This document shows positions 56,726 to 64,000 of a DNA stretch of 64,000 nt, piece after piece (within the stretch, counting starts at the first letter, position 1; the number at the start of each line of letters is the position of its first letter). Under the pieces are notes generated by a model, which was given only the letters and a program-made list of their open reading frames with translations, had not been told where the DNA came from and ran no database searches. The position numbers were made by a program, and so were the translations under genes. This DNA is from Alphaproteobacteria bacterium (GTDB lineage: Bacteria > Pseudomonadota > Alphaproteobacteria > Sphingomonadales > Kordiimonadaceae), in contig JABXIS010000042.1 in the NCBI GenBank assembly GCA_013372975.1, forward strand, positions 1-64,000, given 5' to 3'.

Positions 56726-57463
56726 GTGATGAATCTTCAATATTTTCAGCTGGCTATGGATTTTATCGAACGGTCGAAACAGGTTTCGTCGCTTGAGGAA
56801 CTGGGGGCCGCTTTTCAGGCGGCTACTAAATCTTTGGGCTTTGATTACTATGCCTGTGTTTCCTGTGTCGAGTTTGGGGCGTTGCCGGAAGGATCGGTTT
56901 TTCTGGCCGACTATCCGGATGACTGGACAAAATATTACCTTGAACAGGAATATGAGCGAACTGATCCAATTCTACAGGTTTCATTGAAAGAGCATATGCC
57001 TTTCAATTGGGATAATAAGATCAACCACCGTGTTCTGACGCCGGAGCAAACCGAAATGATGGGCGAGGCCGAAGATGCCGGTCTCTTATATGGTGTTACT
57101 GTGCCCATTCATATTGTTGGTGCGTTTCCGGGTGCCGTCAATGTGGTTGGCGATAACCGCGACATTGACCCTGCAGCTGAACACGCGATCCATCTTATGA
57201 GTGTTTATTTGCATGATGCAGCCTTGAGGGTTGCAACTCAAAATAATGCTCAGCCAAAAGCCGTGGCCAAGCTTACACCCAGAGAAAAAGAATGTCTTCA
57301 ATGGGTTGCTGCAGGTAAAACCGATTGGGAAATTTCTTCGATCCTGTCGATTGCTGAACGGACAGTTCACACCCATGTGGAAAGCGCGAAATCAAAGTTG
57401 GGCGTTAGCACACGGGTTCAGGCGGTTGTAAAGGCCTTCCTGACCAATCTGATACACCACTAG
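56726..57463 (+). CDS. luxR: LuxR-family acyl-homoserine-lactone receptor/regulator
   Basis: Quorum-sensing transcription factor of 245 residues (GTG 56726, or ATG 56729). The N-terminal autoinducer-binding domain keeps the ligand residues of TraR at a constant offset of ten: Trp67, Tyr71, Asp80, Pro81, Trp95 and Gly123. The C-terminal GerE-type helix-turn-helix is KLTPREKECLQWVAAGKT, then SILSIAERTVHTHVESAK. It stands directly upstream of luxI in the same direction, 107 bases apart. Expected ligand is an acyl-homoserine lactone made by the adjacent enzyme; chain length unknown. Confidence 0.94.
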   Translation: MMNLQYFQLAMDFIERSKQVSSLEELGAAFQAATKSLGFDYYACVSCVEFGALPEGSVFLADYPDDWTKYYLEQEYERTDPILQVSLKEHMPFNWDNKINHRVLTPEQTEMMGEAEDAGLLYGVTVPIHIVGAFPGAVNVVGDNRDIDPAAEHAIHLMSVYLHDAALRVATQNNAQPKAVAKLTPREKECLQWVAAGKTDWEISSILSIAERTVHTHVESAKSKLGVSTRVQAVVKAFLTNLIHH

Positions 57464-57535
57464 GTTTATTTTTACAATCTGTCTGCAAAACCTAGTCTAT
57501 TCGGCTGATATCCTGATGCACGTATATAAGGGACA

Positions 57536-57568
57536 ATTGCCTCAATCCTGAGATAGCGAGGAGGCAAT
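57536..57568 (+). promoter_or_regulatory. Stem-loop over the luxI ribosome binding site
   Basis: ATTGCCTC (57536-57543) and GAGGCAAT (57561-57568) are perfect inverted 8-base arms with a 17-base loop. The second arm ends two bases before the luxI ATG and includes the last half of the Shine-Dalgarno AGGAGG (57559-57564), so folding could block initiation. Confidence 0.65.
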
Positions 57569-57570
57569 CG

Positions 57571-58212
57571 ATGATCCATGTTGTAAGTGCTCTTAACAGG
57601 GCAGAGTATAGTGACTACCTGAGACAACTTTGGCAGCAAAGGTATGATGTCTTTGTAGAGAAGATGGGATGGAGCCTTGATTGCGCAAAAGGTATTGAGC
57701 GCGATCAGTTTGACCGTCCGGACACGGTTTATCTTCTGTGCATAGATGACGAAGGCCGTCTCAAGGGGGCGATGCGTCTGCTCCCCACCATGAAGCCGCA
57801 TCTAATGAGTGAAGCCTTTCCTGGCCTTTGTGCTTCTGGCGTGCCCTGCGCAGACAGTATCTGGGAAGTGTCTCGCTTTTATAGCCTGACGGGTCGCCAC
57901 ATGTTGCTGGAACGGGATCGCACCGTAAGTGAACTGGTGTGTGGCTTGTTCGAATTTGGCCTGATGAAGGGAATCGAGAGCGTCACCTGTGTTGCCAGCA
58001 TGGTATTGTTCCCCACCATTTTGAAAGCTGGCTGGAATGTTACCCCACTGGGGCTGCCTGCAGTGTCTGATGGTGAGGTAATTCTCGGCTTCCAGATTGA
58101 TCTGAGCTCTTCTGACTATCTGAAGGTGTGTGAAACCCGCAAAATTGAAGGCAGTGTCCTCCATACCGCGCCAACCGCCGAAGAAGTGCCGCTTCTGGAG
58201 GTTGCCGTATGA
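57571..58212 (+). CDS. luxI: Acyl-homoserine-lactone synthase
   Basis: Makes N-acyl-homoserine lactone from SAM and acyl-ACP. The 213 residues keep all invariant LuxI positions: Arg24, Phe28 and Trp34 (QRYDVFVEKMGW), Asp45 and Asp48 (ERDQFD), Arg69 (GAMRLLPT), Phe83, Glu99 and Arg102 (WEVSRF). The ribosome site AGGAGG lies six bases before the ATG within a possible stem-loop. Its stop overlaps the next gene's start (ATGA). A LuxR receptor is immediately upstream. Confidence 0.96.
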   Translation: MIHVVSALNRAEYSDYLRQLWQQRYDVFVEKMGWSLDCAKGIERDQFDRPDTVYLLCIDDEGRLKGAMRLLPTMKPHLMSEAFPGLCASGVPCADSIWEVSRFYSLTGRHMLLERDRTVSELVCGLFEFGLMKGIESVTCVASMVLFPTILKAGWNVTPLGLPAVSDGEVILGFQIDLSSSDYLKVCETRKIEGSVLHTAPTAEEVPLLEVAV

Positions 58213-58553
58213 CAATTCAGATCCAGATTCCTGAGCAGAAGGTTGCTGGCACCTCATCTTTGGATGGCGGTATTGGTAAACTGTTATTTCTGTTTCAGCA
58301 GCTCCAACCCTGGCAGGTGGAAGATATCGTTTTCAAGGTGAGGCGGGCACTACCCATTCAGGTGAAGCCGGAAAATGAAGAAGACAGGGATGCACCTTTC
58401 TCAAGGTCTGATGCCGCTCAAAAGGCAGTGGTGCAACTTCTCTATATGATCGCGCCTCAAACCTACCCGGATATTCTGTTTGCTCTTACCTACGCAGAGG
58501 CGCTTGCAATGATGCAAGGTGCAGAGCTGGATGAATTTGCGGTAGCACATTAG
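58209..58553 (+). CDS. Unknown protein coupled to luxI
   Basis: A 114-residue protein I do not recognise. It overlaps the luxI stop by four bases (ATGA), so it is translated with luxI and must be part of the quorum-sensing unit. It is predicted mostly helical, with LLFLFQQLQPWQVEDIVFKV and VQLLYMIAPQTYPDILFAL as the most regular helices. It has no signal peptide, no membrane segment and no known motif. A very strong terminator follows. Regulation of LuxI or of its acyl supply is one possibility, without evidence. Confidence 0.75.
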   Translation: MTIQIQIPEQKVAGTSSLDGGIGKLLFLFQQLQPWQVEDIVFKVRRALPIQVKPENEEDRDAPFSRSDAAQKAVVQLLYMIAPQTYPDILFALTYAEALAMMQGAELDEFAVAH

Positions 58554-58597: not shown

Positions 58598-58645
58598 AAA
58601 CCACCGGGACGGGAGTGGTGACCCGTTCCGGTGGTTTATATTTTG
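58598..58645 (+). terminator. Strong terminator of the luxI operon
   Basis: A 16-bp stem (AAACCACCGGGACGGG against CCCGTTCCGGTGGTTT, one wobble) with an 8-base loop, followed by ATATTTTGTC. A further CCGGT/ACCGG arm just upstream can pair with parts of the same stem. Confidence 0.88.
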
Positions 58646-58774: not shown

Positions 58775-60226
58775 ATGCGCTTGTTTAATAAAACAGCGAC
58801 AGCCATGTGCGCGGTGTTGGCCGTGACGGCATCAAGTTGGGCTGGTGAAAAAGAAGATACACTGATCAATCAGGTAGTGGAGGCTTATGGCGGCGATGCC
58901 CTGACATCTGCGACTTCCATGACCATAAATGATCGTTTCAAGGTGTTGGCCGTGGGGCAGAGCTCCAATCCGGCGGTCATGGACATCGGGATCAATCATG
59001 TAACACTGACAGTTGATTTCGAAAATGGCCGCAAAAGCGTTACCAACTGGAACGAAAACCGTGGGGGTACCTTTCTGAACCAGGTGGTTCACAACGGCAC
59101 ATCTGCGCATAACATCAACCACCTGCTCAAGACGACAGCAGAGAACGGCAATTTACCTTATGCAGCTGTGGGCGGAGGCATAATCCGGACAACGGATGTT
59201 GCGCTTGTCAGGTTGCTTATGGACGCGCGGGATAGTGCTGTTCATGATGGCGAGGCCACTTATCGTGGACGCAAACACGAGAAATTGACTTTCAAGATGG
59301 AAGGCAGCCCGGATCTGACGGTTTTTGTTGATGCGGAAACCGGCCTCCTGAGCAAGATGGAAAGACAAAATCCGCAATTGGGTACACTCAGCTATCTTTT
59401 CGGGAAATATAAGGAGGAAGGTGGCATTACGTATGCCACAGACATGAACTTCCTTATTGCCGGACAGCCGAATATCATATCCGTTTCCCGTGACATCGAT
59501 TTCAATACCAAAATGGACGGTGCATTTGACGTGCCGGAGGGATATGCAAGCCAGGGCGGCAATATCGATACATCTGAAATGATCGCGCGAGATCTAGGCA
59601 ATGGTGTATATTATGCCGGTCAAAACAACGGCTTTTCAATTTTTGTCGATGCCGGCGACCACTATGTTGCGGCGGGCGGATATCCAGCGCTACCTGCAAG
59701 GCTGAAAGCAGTTCAGGAACTGGCTGGCAACGACAAGCCTCTTGGCAAGCAGATTGTCACTCACCATCATTCTGACCACCTGGGCGGCATGAATGAAGCA
59801 GCCGAACTGGGCGCAAACTTTGTAACGGTAGCAGACCATGTCGGGCCAGTTCGCGCCACGCTCAGTGGTGACGTCGGGGATGACAGATTTGAACTGGTGA
59901 ATGGCCGGGCGTCTTATGCAGATGGTAAGGTTCAGGTGATTGATATCTCCACCGCGCATTCCGAACATTATCTTCTTGTCTATGTGCCAAGTGCCAATCT
60001 TGTTTTCAGTGCGGACCATTTCAGTACGAATCTGGAAAGTGGGCTGCCACCAGCTAACAACAATATGGCGACCTTCCGTACTGCAATCGAGGCCCTGGAT
60101 ATGGGCGCGCTGAACTTCCTGGGGGCACACGGGTCTCGTATGCTGACCATGGATGATCTCAGGAAAGCTACAGACGGCTTTCAAGTGGCAAGTTGTCCGG
60201 CGGGTTTCGACATCTGTGCGGACTAG
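58775..60226 (+). CDS. Exported metallo-beta-lactamase-fold hydrolase
   Basis: A 483-residue secreted protein with a Sec signal (about 1-24). The N-terminal 230 residues hold strand-rich segments with no clear domain name. A C-terminal metallo-beta-lactamase fold follows, with the metal motif THHHSDHLGG (His330, His332, Asp334, His335), then ADHVGP, TAHSEHYLLVY, FSADHF and LGAHGS as the later ligands. The tail SCPAGFDICAD has two Cys. AGGAGGGGAG precedes the start. It lies 220 bases after the lux operon terminator. AHL lactonases use the same fold, but so do many other enzymes, so no substrate is assigned. Confidence 0.86.
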   Translation: MRLFNKTATAMCAVLAVTASSWAGEKEDTLINQVVEAYGGDALTSATSMTINDRFKVLAVGQSSNPAVMDIGINHVTLTVDFENGRKSVTNWNENRGGTFLNQVVHNGTSAHNINHLLKTTAENGNLPYAAVGGGIIRTTDVALVRLLMDARDSAVHDGEATYRGRKHEKLTFKMEGSPDLTVFVDAETGLLSKMERQNPQLGTLSYLFGKYKEEGGITYATDMNFLIAGQPNIISVSRDIDFNTKMDGAFDVPEGYASQGGNIDTSEMIARDLGNGVYYAGQNNGFSIFVDAGDHYVAAGGYPALPARLKAVQELAGNDKPLGKQIVTHHHSDHLGGMNEAAELGANFVTVADHVGPVRATLSGDVGDDRFELVNGRASYADGKVQVIDISTAHSEHYLLVYVPSANLVFSADHFSTNLESGLPPANNNMATFRTAIEALDMGALNFLGAHGSRMLTMDDLRKATDGFQVASCPAGFDICAD

Positions 60227-60308
60227 AAACTGTCTCTAAATTACGGAAAACATACTAAGTCTCGGGGCACATCAGTGGCCCGGGATCACTTTTTTGGGGG
60301 TGCGAAAC

Positions 60309-61745
60309 ATGAGAAAATTGAAAGAGTTGGCCACGAGTGTGGCCGTGGCCGTGCTGCTGGTCTCGCCAGTGGCAGCTGATCAGCTAGCCGACGAAGTTGT
60401 GGATCAGGTTGTGGCAGCCTATGGCGGAAAAACCTTGACTGACATGAAAAGCCTGTTTGTTCGGGATCGCTATAAAATGATCAATACTGACGGTGGAGCA
60501 GTTCCGGGTGAGGCAACTGTTTCCCGCCTCTATTCAGATCTTAGCGTTGACTTTGAAACGGGCCAGAAGAGCGTCAAGAACTGGACCATGAACCAAAATG
60601 GTAATCGCCTTGGGCAAATTATGTTTGATGGCGAGAAAGGCTGGAGTGTGAACCATCTACGTGGCTCCCATGTTAGACGAGATGACCTCAACGGTGACAA
60701 TGTGGGGGCTGGCATGATGCGGCTCCTTGATGCCACCGTTGTCCGCAGCTTGTTTGAAAACCGGAATTCGGCAGCCTTGAAGGAAGATGTGCAGTATCGG
60801 GGCGTCCCTCACTATCAGCTCACATTCGCAACTGAAAAGGGGCCCGAACAGCTTCTCTACATCGATAAATCAAGCGGATTGGTATCAAAAATGATCCGAG
60901 GCCGTGCTGTGTATGAGTTTGCAGACCATGTGTTTACAGACGGTATTGCTTATGCGAGGGACACTAACTTTCTCGCCAGCGGCCAACCCCGCTTGGTAAC
61001 AACCAGTCGGTCGATCCAGGTCAACGCAAACGTTGAAGACGCATTTTCTGTGCCCAAAGCGACAAAGGCACTTGAGGGCATGCGCGATACCAGCTCCATG
61101 GACGTCGTTTCTCCGGCTAAAGGAGTTTATCTGGCGGGCAAAGGCTTCTCTGCTTCAATTTTTGTGGATGCCGGTGATTATTTTGTCGGGGCAGGTGGCA
61201 TGGGGGGCATCAAGGACAGGCTTTCCGCTGTTCAGGAAATGTCCGGGTCTGATAAACCTTTGAGGTATCAGGTTATTCCAGAGCATCATCCGGGGCACAA
61301 TCGTGGTGCAAAAGATATTGCAGATCTGGGCGCCATCTTTGTAACCGTTGAAAACCATGTTGCTTCGATACAGGATCTGCTGGACGCACCGTTGCCTGAC
61401 GACCGTTTCTTGCTGGTTGACGGACAGCAAGAACTGGCTGATGGCAAAGTGGGTGTTTACGAGATTGCAACAATCCAGTCGGCGCAATATCTGATCTTCT
61501 ATGTGCCATCGGCCAAGCTTGTTTTTGGCGTTGATGACTTCGGCACAAACCTGTTGAACTCAGTACCGTCGCCTGACAGGCGCATGATTTCATTCAGGAA
61601 GGCAATTGAGGCGCTGGACCTTGACGTTGAACAGTTCGCGCACGTGCATGGCACCGGCTTGCTGACAATAGACCAATTGCGTGAGGTAACGGATAGTTAC
61701 CGGCACAGAAGTTGCCCGGCCGGGCACAGCATCTGCGCTGACTAG
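60309..61745 (+). CDS. Paralogue of the exported metallo-hydrolase with degenerate metal site
   Basis: A 478-residue paralogue of the preceding protein, same layout and tail (SCPAGHSICAD), signal peptide to about residue 23. The metal motif is broken: THHHSDH is replaced by PEHHPGH (Glu325, His327, Gly329, His330), TAHSEH by TIQSAQ, and SADHF by GVDDF; the ENHVAS and HVHGTG His residues remain. It therefore is probably not an active two-metal hydrolase. GGGGGTG precedes ATG 60309; TTG 60294 is an upstream alternative. It follows its copy after 82 bases. Confidence 0.84.
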   Translation: MRKLKELATSVAVAVLLVSPVAADQLADEVVDQVVAAYGGKTLTDMKSLFVRDRYKMINTDGGAVPGEATVSRLYSDLSVDFETGQKSVKNWTMNQNGNRLGQIMFDGEKGWSVNHLRGSHVRRDDLNGDNVGAGMMRLLDATVVRSLFENRNSAALKEDVQYRGVPHYQLTFATEKGPEQLLYIDKSSGLVSKMIRGRAVYEFADHVFTDGIAYARDTNFLASGQPRLVTTSRSIQVNANVEDAFSVPKATKALEGMRDTSSMDVVSPAKGVYLAGKGFSASIFVDAGDYFVGAGGMGGIKDRLSAVQEMSGSDKPLRYQVIPEHHPGHNRGAKDIADLGAIFVTVENHVASIQDLLDAPLPDDRFLLVDGQQELADGKVGVYEIATIQSAQYLIFYVPSAKLVFGVDDFGTNLLNSVPSPDRRMISFRKAIEALDLDVEQFAHVHGTGLLTIDQLREVTDSYRHRSCPAGHSICAD

Positions 61746-62852: not shown

Positions 62853-62879
62853 AAAAGGCGCCCGGAGGCGCCTTTTTTT
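62853..62879 (+). terminator. Bidirectional terminator
   Basis: AAAAGGCGCC and GGCGCCTTTT are perfect 10-base arms around CGGA, ending in seven T. The stop codon of the convergent minus-strand gene lies within the T tract. Confidence 0.93.
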
Positions 62880-64000
62880 AATCGATGAACTGCAGGTTAG
62901 CCAAATCGCCAAGTGATAGCCCGGCAAGGAAAATGCTGTTGCCGTCCCCTGTATCAATCAGCACCCCGGATGTGCCATCCACAGTTGTTTCAGTGGATGC
63001 ATTCTGGATGTCAGCAAGCGATGTGAAGTCTGTTTTTGTGCCGCTCAGGTCCAGTGTATCTTCGTCGATGCTGAAACCACTAACCTGATCATCACCATGA
63101 TCGCCCGAGAAGGCGAGGGTATCGCTGCCAGCGCCGGGATAGAGGAAATCATCCCCCGCACCGCCGTTCAGCAGGTCATTTCCGGCACCGCCATAAAGGG
63201 TGTCGTTGCCGCCATCACCGTAGACTGTATCATTATCAGTACCGCCATATAGCTCGTCATTTCCGTTGCCGCCACGAACAACGTCGTTTTCGGTACCGCC
63301 AAAAACAACATCGTTGCCGTTGCCACCGTTCAGGTTGTCGCTGCCAGACTTGCCAGCGTAAATCTTGTCATTGCCGCCAGCGCCATCAATGGTGTCGTTG
63401 CCTAGACCGCCGCCAAGGTTATCTATACCATTTGCGCCATAGACCAGATCATCCCCATCACCTGCCCACATGGAATTGCCGGTGCTTTCGGATGTGGTTG
63501 GGGCATTGTCGACCCAGTCACCACCAACCATTGTGTCGTCACCGCTGCCACCGAAGCCTGTATCATTGCCAGTTTGACCCACGATCAGGTCTCCACCTGC
63601 GCCGCCCGCAAGGATATCGCTGCCCGCGCCACCAAAGAGGGAATCATTCCCGGCATCGCCAGCACCAGCCCAAACGGTGTCGTTGCCAAGGCCCCCAAAA
63701 AACAGATCGTTTCCTGCGAAGCCCGTCAGCACATTATCGGCATCGTTGCCTGTGAGGGTATCGTCGCCAATTGAGCCTTTGGCATTTTCGATGATGGTGT
63801 TTGGCATGATCAGAAGCCTGCCTGGCTCGATGGCTACATTCTGCTGGCCATCTACATACCATTCATAAACAATATCGGGTCCGATGTCAGACCAGGCGCC
63901 TGGGGTCAGGTCGATATGAACCGCGTCGCCAGTGCCTGTGACCTGAATGGTATCTATGCCGCCTGCGTCAAAGATGGTTTCCAGGAACTTGGCAGACAGG
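62878..64000 (-). CDS. M10-C/RTX-type secreted protein (5' end outside window)
   Basis: The frame is open across the right edge: translation of 64000-63808 continues into the protein and shows FDAGGIDTIQVTGTG, then WSDIGPDIVYEWYV, then TIIENAKGSIGDDTLTGND, the pattern of the peptidase M10 (serralysin) C-terminal domain. RTX nonapeptides follow (GGxGNDxx, about 20 copies). The C-terminal tail is DGTSGVLIDTGDGN, then IFLAGLSLGDL, matching the tail of the giant adhesin at 40.8 kb. It is probably a type-I-secreted protease or other enzyme; the catalytic part is not in view. The apparent start at Met 63807 is internal. Confidence 0.9.
   Translation of the reverse strand, partial: LSAKFLETIFDAGGIDTIQVTGTGDAVHIDLTPGAWSDIGPDIVYEWYVDGQQNVAIEPGRLLIMPNTIIENAKGSIGDDTLTGNDADNVLTGFAGNDLFFGGLGNDTVWAGAGDAGNDSLFGGAGSDILAGGAGGDLIVGQTGNDTGFGGSGDDTMVGGDWVDNAPTTSESTGNSMWAGDGDDLVYGANGIDNLGGGLGNDTIDGAGGNDKIYAGKSGSDNLNGGNGNDVVFGGTENDVVRGGNGNDELYGGTDNDTVYGDGGNDTLYGGAGNDLLNGGAGDDFLYPGAGSDTLAFSGDHGDDQVSGFSIDEDTLDLSGTKTDFTSLADIQNASTETTVDGTSGVLIDTGDGNSIFLAGLSLGDLANLQFID

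Follow-up and report, generated by a model that had tools for sequence, protein, structure and literature searches.

The window analysed here, 64,000 nt in length, opens contig C54 in the 3.6 Mb genome of a marine bacterium, and the named members of the genus-level group to which this genome belongs are Kordiimonas species. Towards its right end are two co-directional genes, here called A and P, with P downstream of A and separated from it by a gap of 82 bp in which no terminator-like site was found. The encoded proteins share 41% identity over their whole length (483 columns), and both carry a putative Sec-type signal sequence at the N-terminus and a conserved Cys-Pro...Cys tail at the C-terminus. 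From the sequence, the best start codon for gene P is the ATG at 60309, and a TTG at 60294 is less likely. The features of the two genes are as follows, with metal ligands of the metallo-beta-lactamase (MBL) domain numbered as in protein A:

58775..60226, + strand: gene A, an intact fusion of a LolA-like and an MBL domain, 483 aa, reading HHDHHDH at the seven ligand columns
59762..59779, + strand: residues 330-335 of A, where the HxHxDH motif is intact, from the sequence
60309..61745, + strand: gene P, degenerate paralogue, 478 aa, open frame, in a clade with L064, L167 and L169
60309..60377, + strand: putative Sec-type signal peptide of P (an n-region and a hydrophobic core are followed by an AxA-like end, with ...SPVAA the probable last residues)
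60378..61058, + strand: N-terminal domain of P, LolA-like, spanning roughly residues 24-250 and matched by Foldseek to LolA3 9tp6 (E 8.9e-9)
60609..60758, + strand: segment 101-150 of P, with a pair of predicted helices where the LolA fold has its lid; conservation in the P lineage is unusually high here
61092..61709, + strand: MBL-fold domain of P, residues 262-467 (Z 19.1 to CphA 1x8i)
61281..61298, + strand: altered motif 2 of P, E-H-H-P-G-H, with H330E and D334G, and H332 and H335 kept
61476..61478, + strand: H395Q in P, loss of the motif 3 ligand (family alignment)
61533..61535, + strand: D414 of P, kept, the bridging ligand, which aligns with the engineered Asp221 of BcII 2nxa
61647..61649, + strand: H452 of P, kept, the motif 5 ligand (family alignment)

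A third family member, also intact, is found on another contig of the host genome (G000:C5). Beyond the pair, at 62878-63999 on the - strand, is a CDS for a protein with many glycine-aspartate-rich RTX-like repeats, which runs off the end of the window.

AlphaFold2 models gave mean pLDDT values of 95.1 for P and 94.2 for A, and both proteins are predicted to consist of a LolA-like, lipid-binding-type domain joined to an MBL domain. The C-terminal domain has the alpha-beta-beta-alpha fold of the MBL superfamily in both models and is near to CphA, GIM, VIM and FprA (Z about 19); that of P superimposes on CphA (1x8i) over 194 residues with an rmsd of 3.1, and that of A reaches Z 18.8 with solved MBLs. 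The N-terminal domain was matched by Foldseek to LolA3 of Porphyromonas gingivalis (E 8.9e-9 for P and 9.2e-10 for A), a loose match (TM 0.50-0.53, rmsd above 6; 6.5 at TM 0.53) to a domain that was modelled within the whole chain, and Pfam and NCBIfam gave no match for this domain. In P, the predicted helices 134-138 and 141-150 sit between two strands at the position of the lid in the LolA fold. The score of A against subclass B1 falls short of the family cut-off (23.2 bits vs 200), and a search with P using the subclass B1 metallo-beta-lactamase model returned no match.

At the seven canonical MBL ligand positions (330, 332, 334, 335, 395, 414 and 452), A reads HHDHHDH and P reads EHGHQDH. 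The original prediction, made from the letters of this DNA, was that an intact HxHxDH gene lies beside a full-length copy with ExHxGH, and all of the motif differences it gave are borne out in the sequence (HHHSDH to EHHPGH, TAHSEH to TIQSAQ and SADHF to GVDDF, with SCPAG..ICAD kept). Its statement that most of the metal ligands had been lost was right about the loss itself but not about the extent, since three of the seven are lost (H330E, D334G and H395Q) and four are kept (H332, H335, D414 and H452). The changes at H398 and H415, which fall within the motifs it cited, affect positions that are not canonical ligands and are variable within the family (His in 56/86 and 41/86 members, respectively). 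The mapping of the ligands is backed by profile alignments to the Giardia flavodiiron protein 2q9u and to BcII R121H/C221D (2nxa), and in the latter D414 meets the Asp at position 221.

The canonical ligand set is intact in 83 of 110 family sequences, a sample that includes a few fragments and is biased towards intact members because the intact motif was one source of the patterns used in one of the scans. Nineteen columns are at least 90% conserved in the 80 other members, of which P retains 15; three of the four that it has changed are metal ligands, losses that look beyond random drift. As its ligand positions read EHGHQDH, P lacks the signature of an active metallo-hydrolase (HxHxDH plus a distal His, Asp and His) and is not filed as an active MBL hydrolase; like a pseudoenzyme, it combines the homologous fold with the loss of metal-binding residues. 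The sequence supports a secreted-type, full-length protein with a putatively disabled MBL site.

Three gammaproteobacterial proteins with a related altered site were retrieved by a scan with the family alignment and by a search of the Alteromonadaceae. They are L064, from the uncultured Alteromonadaceae isolate 271 (50% and 56% identity to P in two pieces), L167, from genome G602 (52% identity), and L169, from genome G702 (44% identity). Together with P they form a clade with a support of 100 when all columns are used, and of 100/100 when the ligand columns are left out. All four have an acidic residue at 330 (Glu or Asp) and Gly at 334, and all keep H335, D414 and H452, while the loop FGTNLLNSVPS of the MBL pocket is identical in three of the P-type proteins. 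In L169, there is Asp at 330 and Gly at 334, yet H395, ADHF and HGPR are present, and the protein looks like an intermediate form in which the motif 3 ligand is still in place. Motif 2 is one residue shorter in L064 and L167, which makes it ambiguous whether their His aligns with H331 or H332. The P lineage is rare, being found in four genomes among roughly 1,700 searched. A single-sequence scan of genome contigs with P as the query gave no match, wider samples of the host's class and of the order and class of the Alteromonadaceae contained no further P-type genes, and no conserved gene neighborhood was seen for this type.

In the trees, P falls among gammaproteobacterial proteins, apart from gene A. 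A recent local duplication of A is thereby ruled out, and P represents an old lineage that was not made by duplication in the host genome; it has probably moved horizontally between classes. Orthologues with intact motifs in the same position had been named at the outset as evidence that would count against a pseudoenzyme. The P-type relatives found are all altered, and none is intact. Intact genes do occupy the slot behind gene A in four sister Kordiimonas genomes, but they are B-type genes, which belong to another clade and are not orthologues of P, and the B-type relative of the host genome itself is on a different contig.

The original prediction also held that the frame of P is under constraint, and proposed dN/dS between orthologues as a check. 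Constraint is evident, but a finite dN/dS cannot be quoted because dS is saturated (pS 0.74–0.85 among the P orthologues). Between P and L167, pN is 0.33 and pS 0.85; pN is also 0.33 between P and L064, and the values for L064 and L167 are 0.18 and 0.82. In spite of the saturated synonymous change, 51% of residues are kept between the two classes (51–71% identity among the orthologue proteins), which indicates strong purifying selection on the P lineage. Both the pN and pS values and the occurrence of the altered motif in two classes are those of a gene kept by selection rather than one in decay. That P might be a pseudogene that has not yet acquired stops could be argued from its lost ligands and from L064, which has an in-frame TAA at codon 275 (L064:6823-6825) in an otherwise intact frame, the mark of a gene inactivated not long ago or else an error in the sequence of the uncultured assembly. 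The frame of P itself is fully open, however, and with so many residues held against a saturated synonymous background, including 15 of the 19 near-invariant ones, decay is highly improbable. Because similar altered versions exist in three bacteria of another class, P is probably kept for a new, non-enzyme job and is not dying.

Conservation has shifted within the protein: in the P lineage the metal motif has become less conserved and the LolA-like lid segment more so. This can be seen by comparison with triples of gene-A proteins of similar overall divergence. The motif 2 region, which was of prior interest, is 30% identical among the three P orthologues and 70–75% in the gene-A triples (Fisher p 0.01–0.03), whereas segment 101-150, for which the comparison was exploratory, is 72% identical among the P orthologues and 24–40% in the gene-A triples (p 0.002 or below). 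When 50-column windows were slid along the alignment, 76 of them, starting between columns 28 and 119, topped all 20 gene-A triples.

In active MBLs, D334 is a ligand of the second metal and positions the water for attack. From this established chemistry, the loss of D334 together with two of the three first-site His would end ordinary MBL hydrolysis. We therefore favor, at a probability of about 0.55, the view that P is a conserved, non-hydrolytic, secreted or periplasmic binding protein built as a LolA-like and MBL fusion. Its ancestors would have been metal-dependent hydrolases like the product of gene A, and binding of some kind would be the reason for its retention. A lipid-like or acyl ligand may be held in the hydrophobic pocket of the LolA-like domain, under the conserved lid, and the MBL pocket, with its FGTNLLNSVPS loop and H335, D414 and H452, may provide a second binding or structural surface, in which case the protein could act as a carrier or a sensor.

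The main rival to the binding-protein reading is that P is still an enzyme, in which a remodelled one-metal site (H335, D414 and H452, plus the acidic residue at 330 and H332) uses Fe, Mn or Zn for a different chemistry. Residual activity is conceivable because the three kept ligands and the carboxylate at 330 could hold a metal, and these residues are present in 4/4 P-type proteins. The identical pocket loop in three of them fits this reading, as does the use of a motif 2 carboxylate by flavodiiron MBL domains (the Giardia protein 2q9u reads HAEGDH). It sits poorly, however, with Gly in place of D334 in all four proteins, with motif 2 being the very region where conservation was lost, and with the one-residue deletion inside the motif in L064 and L167, and on balance we consider a one-metal enzyme unlikely.

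A further question is whether P depends on A, either by forming a mixed complex with it or by competing for the same ligand. The adjacent, co-directional arrangement with a short gap is suggestive of a partnership, and pairs of active and inactive MBL proteins are known, such as INTS11 and INTS9 (PMC7980224). Elsewhere, in genome G602 (4.0 Mb, of which a single contig makes up 3.97 Mb), the P-type gene is accompanied by one other family member, and this too is degenerate (HHGNHER), while the P-type gene of G702 was the sole full-length family member detected there; in neither genome does the P-type gene adjoin an intact family gene, and in the Alteromonadaceae genome of L064 the other family member is distant. 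The P type therefore needs no active twin, and the idea that P generally serves as a regulator of its twin is weakened and finds no support in these genomes. A local partnership between A and P may still operate in the host genome, although as an explanation for P it is quite improbable.

A LuxR-LuxI pair with a 114-aa frame (56726-58553) is situated between sspB and gene A only in the host genome; in relatives, sspB is beside the family gene, and at the nine loci where a relative keeps the sspB neighborhood LuxR-LuxI had no match. After the pair, and before gene A, there is a 16-pair terminator-like hairpin (58598-58637). A quorum-quenching link by way of LuxR-LuxI is disfavored by the lack of a match to the pair at those nine loci and by the hairpin that separates it from A. 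There was no lactonase model among the matches listed for A or P, and nothing found here points to an esterase or lactonase activity in either protein, for which the original prediction had proposed an assay. In five other loci (L100, L115, L116, L123 and L126), intact family members are near an ABC permease/ATPase pair whose sequences resemble MacB/LolCDE on visual inspection, which may give a clue to the function of the LolA-like domain.

The Alteromonadaceae search also recovered a second degenerate clade (support 100) of ten proteins (L173, L181-L188 and L199). Their first half-site is kept, with H330, H332 and H395 in place and a carboxylate (Asp or Glu) at 414, but D334 has become A, G or R, H335 is Asn and H452 is Arg. 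In the P lineage it is the second half-site that remains (H335, D414 and H452), with an acidic residue at 330, so the two lineages have lost complementary metal half-sites, and G602 carries only two degenerate forms, one of each type. It is possible, if rather doubtful, that the family of secreted LolA-like and MBL fusions repeatedly gives up ordinary hydrolysis, in complementary ways, and that both lineages have become ligand carriers or one-metal proteins with a new chemistry.

Other deviations are scattered through the family. In gene A of genome G014 (L036:5420-6712), an in-frame deletion of about 52 residues removes motif 2, which may be an assembly error of that MAG. Glu replaces Asp at 334 in L035, L037, L038, L042 and L069 (HHEHHDH), and Asp replaces H395 in L043, L044 and L124 (HHDHDDH), which belong to a distant Kordiimonadaceae subgroup.

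Seen in the context of its family, the original observation is strengthened and was right in substance. The best-described inactive MBL-fold proteins come from eukaryotic RNA processing, where CPSF100 is the inactive MBL/beta-CASP partner of CPSF73. INTS9 is the corresponding inactive MBL/beta-CASP partner of the active INTS11 and has lost key metal ligands (PMC7980224). Like P, both are MBL-fold paralogues of an active enzyme that have lost key metal ligands; unlike P, they are nuclear RNA-processing scaffolds without a LolA-like domain, and they share a complex with the active subunit, whereas P-type genes occur without an intact paralogue. The inactive MBL domain of yeast tRNase Z (Trz1) has lost metal binding and hydrolysis and is kept for substrate binding (PMC7785958), a parallel to the reading favored for P, but it belongs to the same polypeptide as the active half, has an RNA substrate and is not secreted. 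In LprG and LolB, lid helices gate a hydrophobic pocket (PMC6363788). The N-terminal domains of A and P loosely resemble LolA3 9tp6, from the LolA/LolB/LprG superfamily of lipoprotein and lipid carriers, which have no MBL domain. The B1 and B2 metallo-beta-lactamases (VIM, GIM and CphA) are, by fold, some of the nearest solved structures to the C-terminal domain; they differ in that A lies far below the curated cut-off (23 vs 200 bits) and that A and P have an added N-terminal domain, and the B1 enzymes have Cys at the motif 4 position where A has Asp. The MBL domains of flavodiiron/FprA proteins are similarly close (Z 18.8–19.0), and the Giardia relative shares the motif 2 carboxylate, but these proteins have a flavodoxin domain and a di-iron redox site, and P is without Asp 334 and the motif 3 His. 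A literature search of partial coverage, comprising the titles and abstracts of the top matches, returned no bacterial secreted MBL pseudoenzyme. Beside these systems, P would provide a case that is bacterial and secreted, has orthologues in two classes of proteobacteria and comes with an adjoining intact paralogue and the intermediate L169, and its family would be a tractable system for following how an enzyme becomes a binding protein, and for asking whether the fusion of a lipid-binding and a hydrolase domain arose so that both could act on one ligand.
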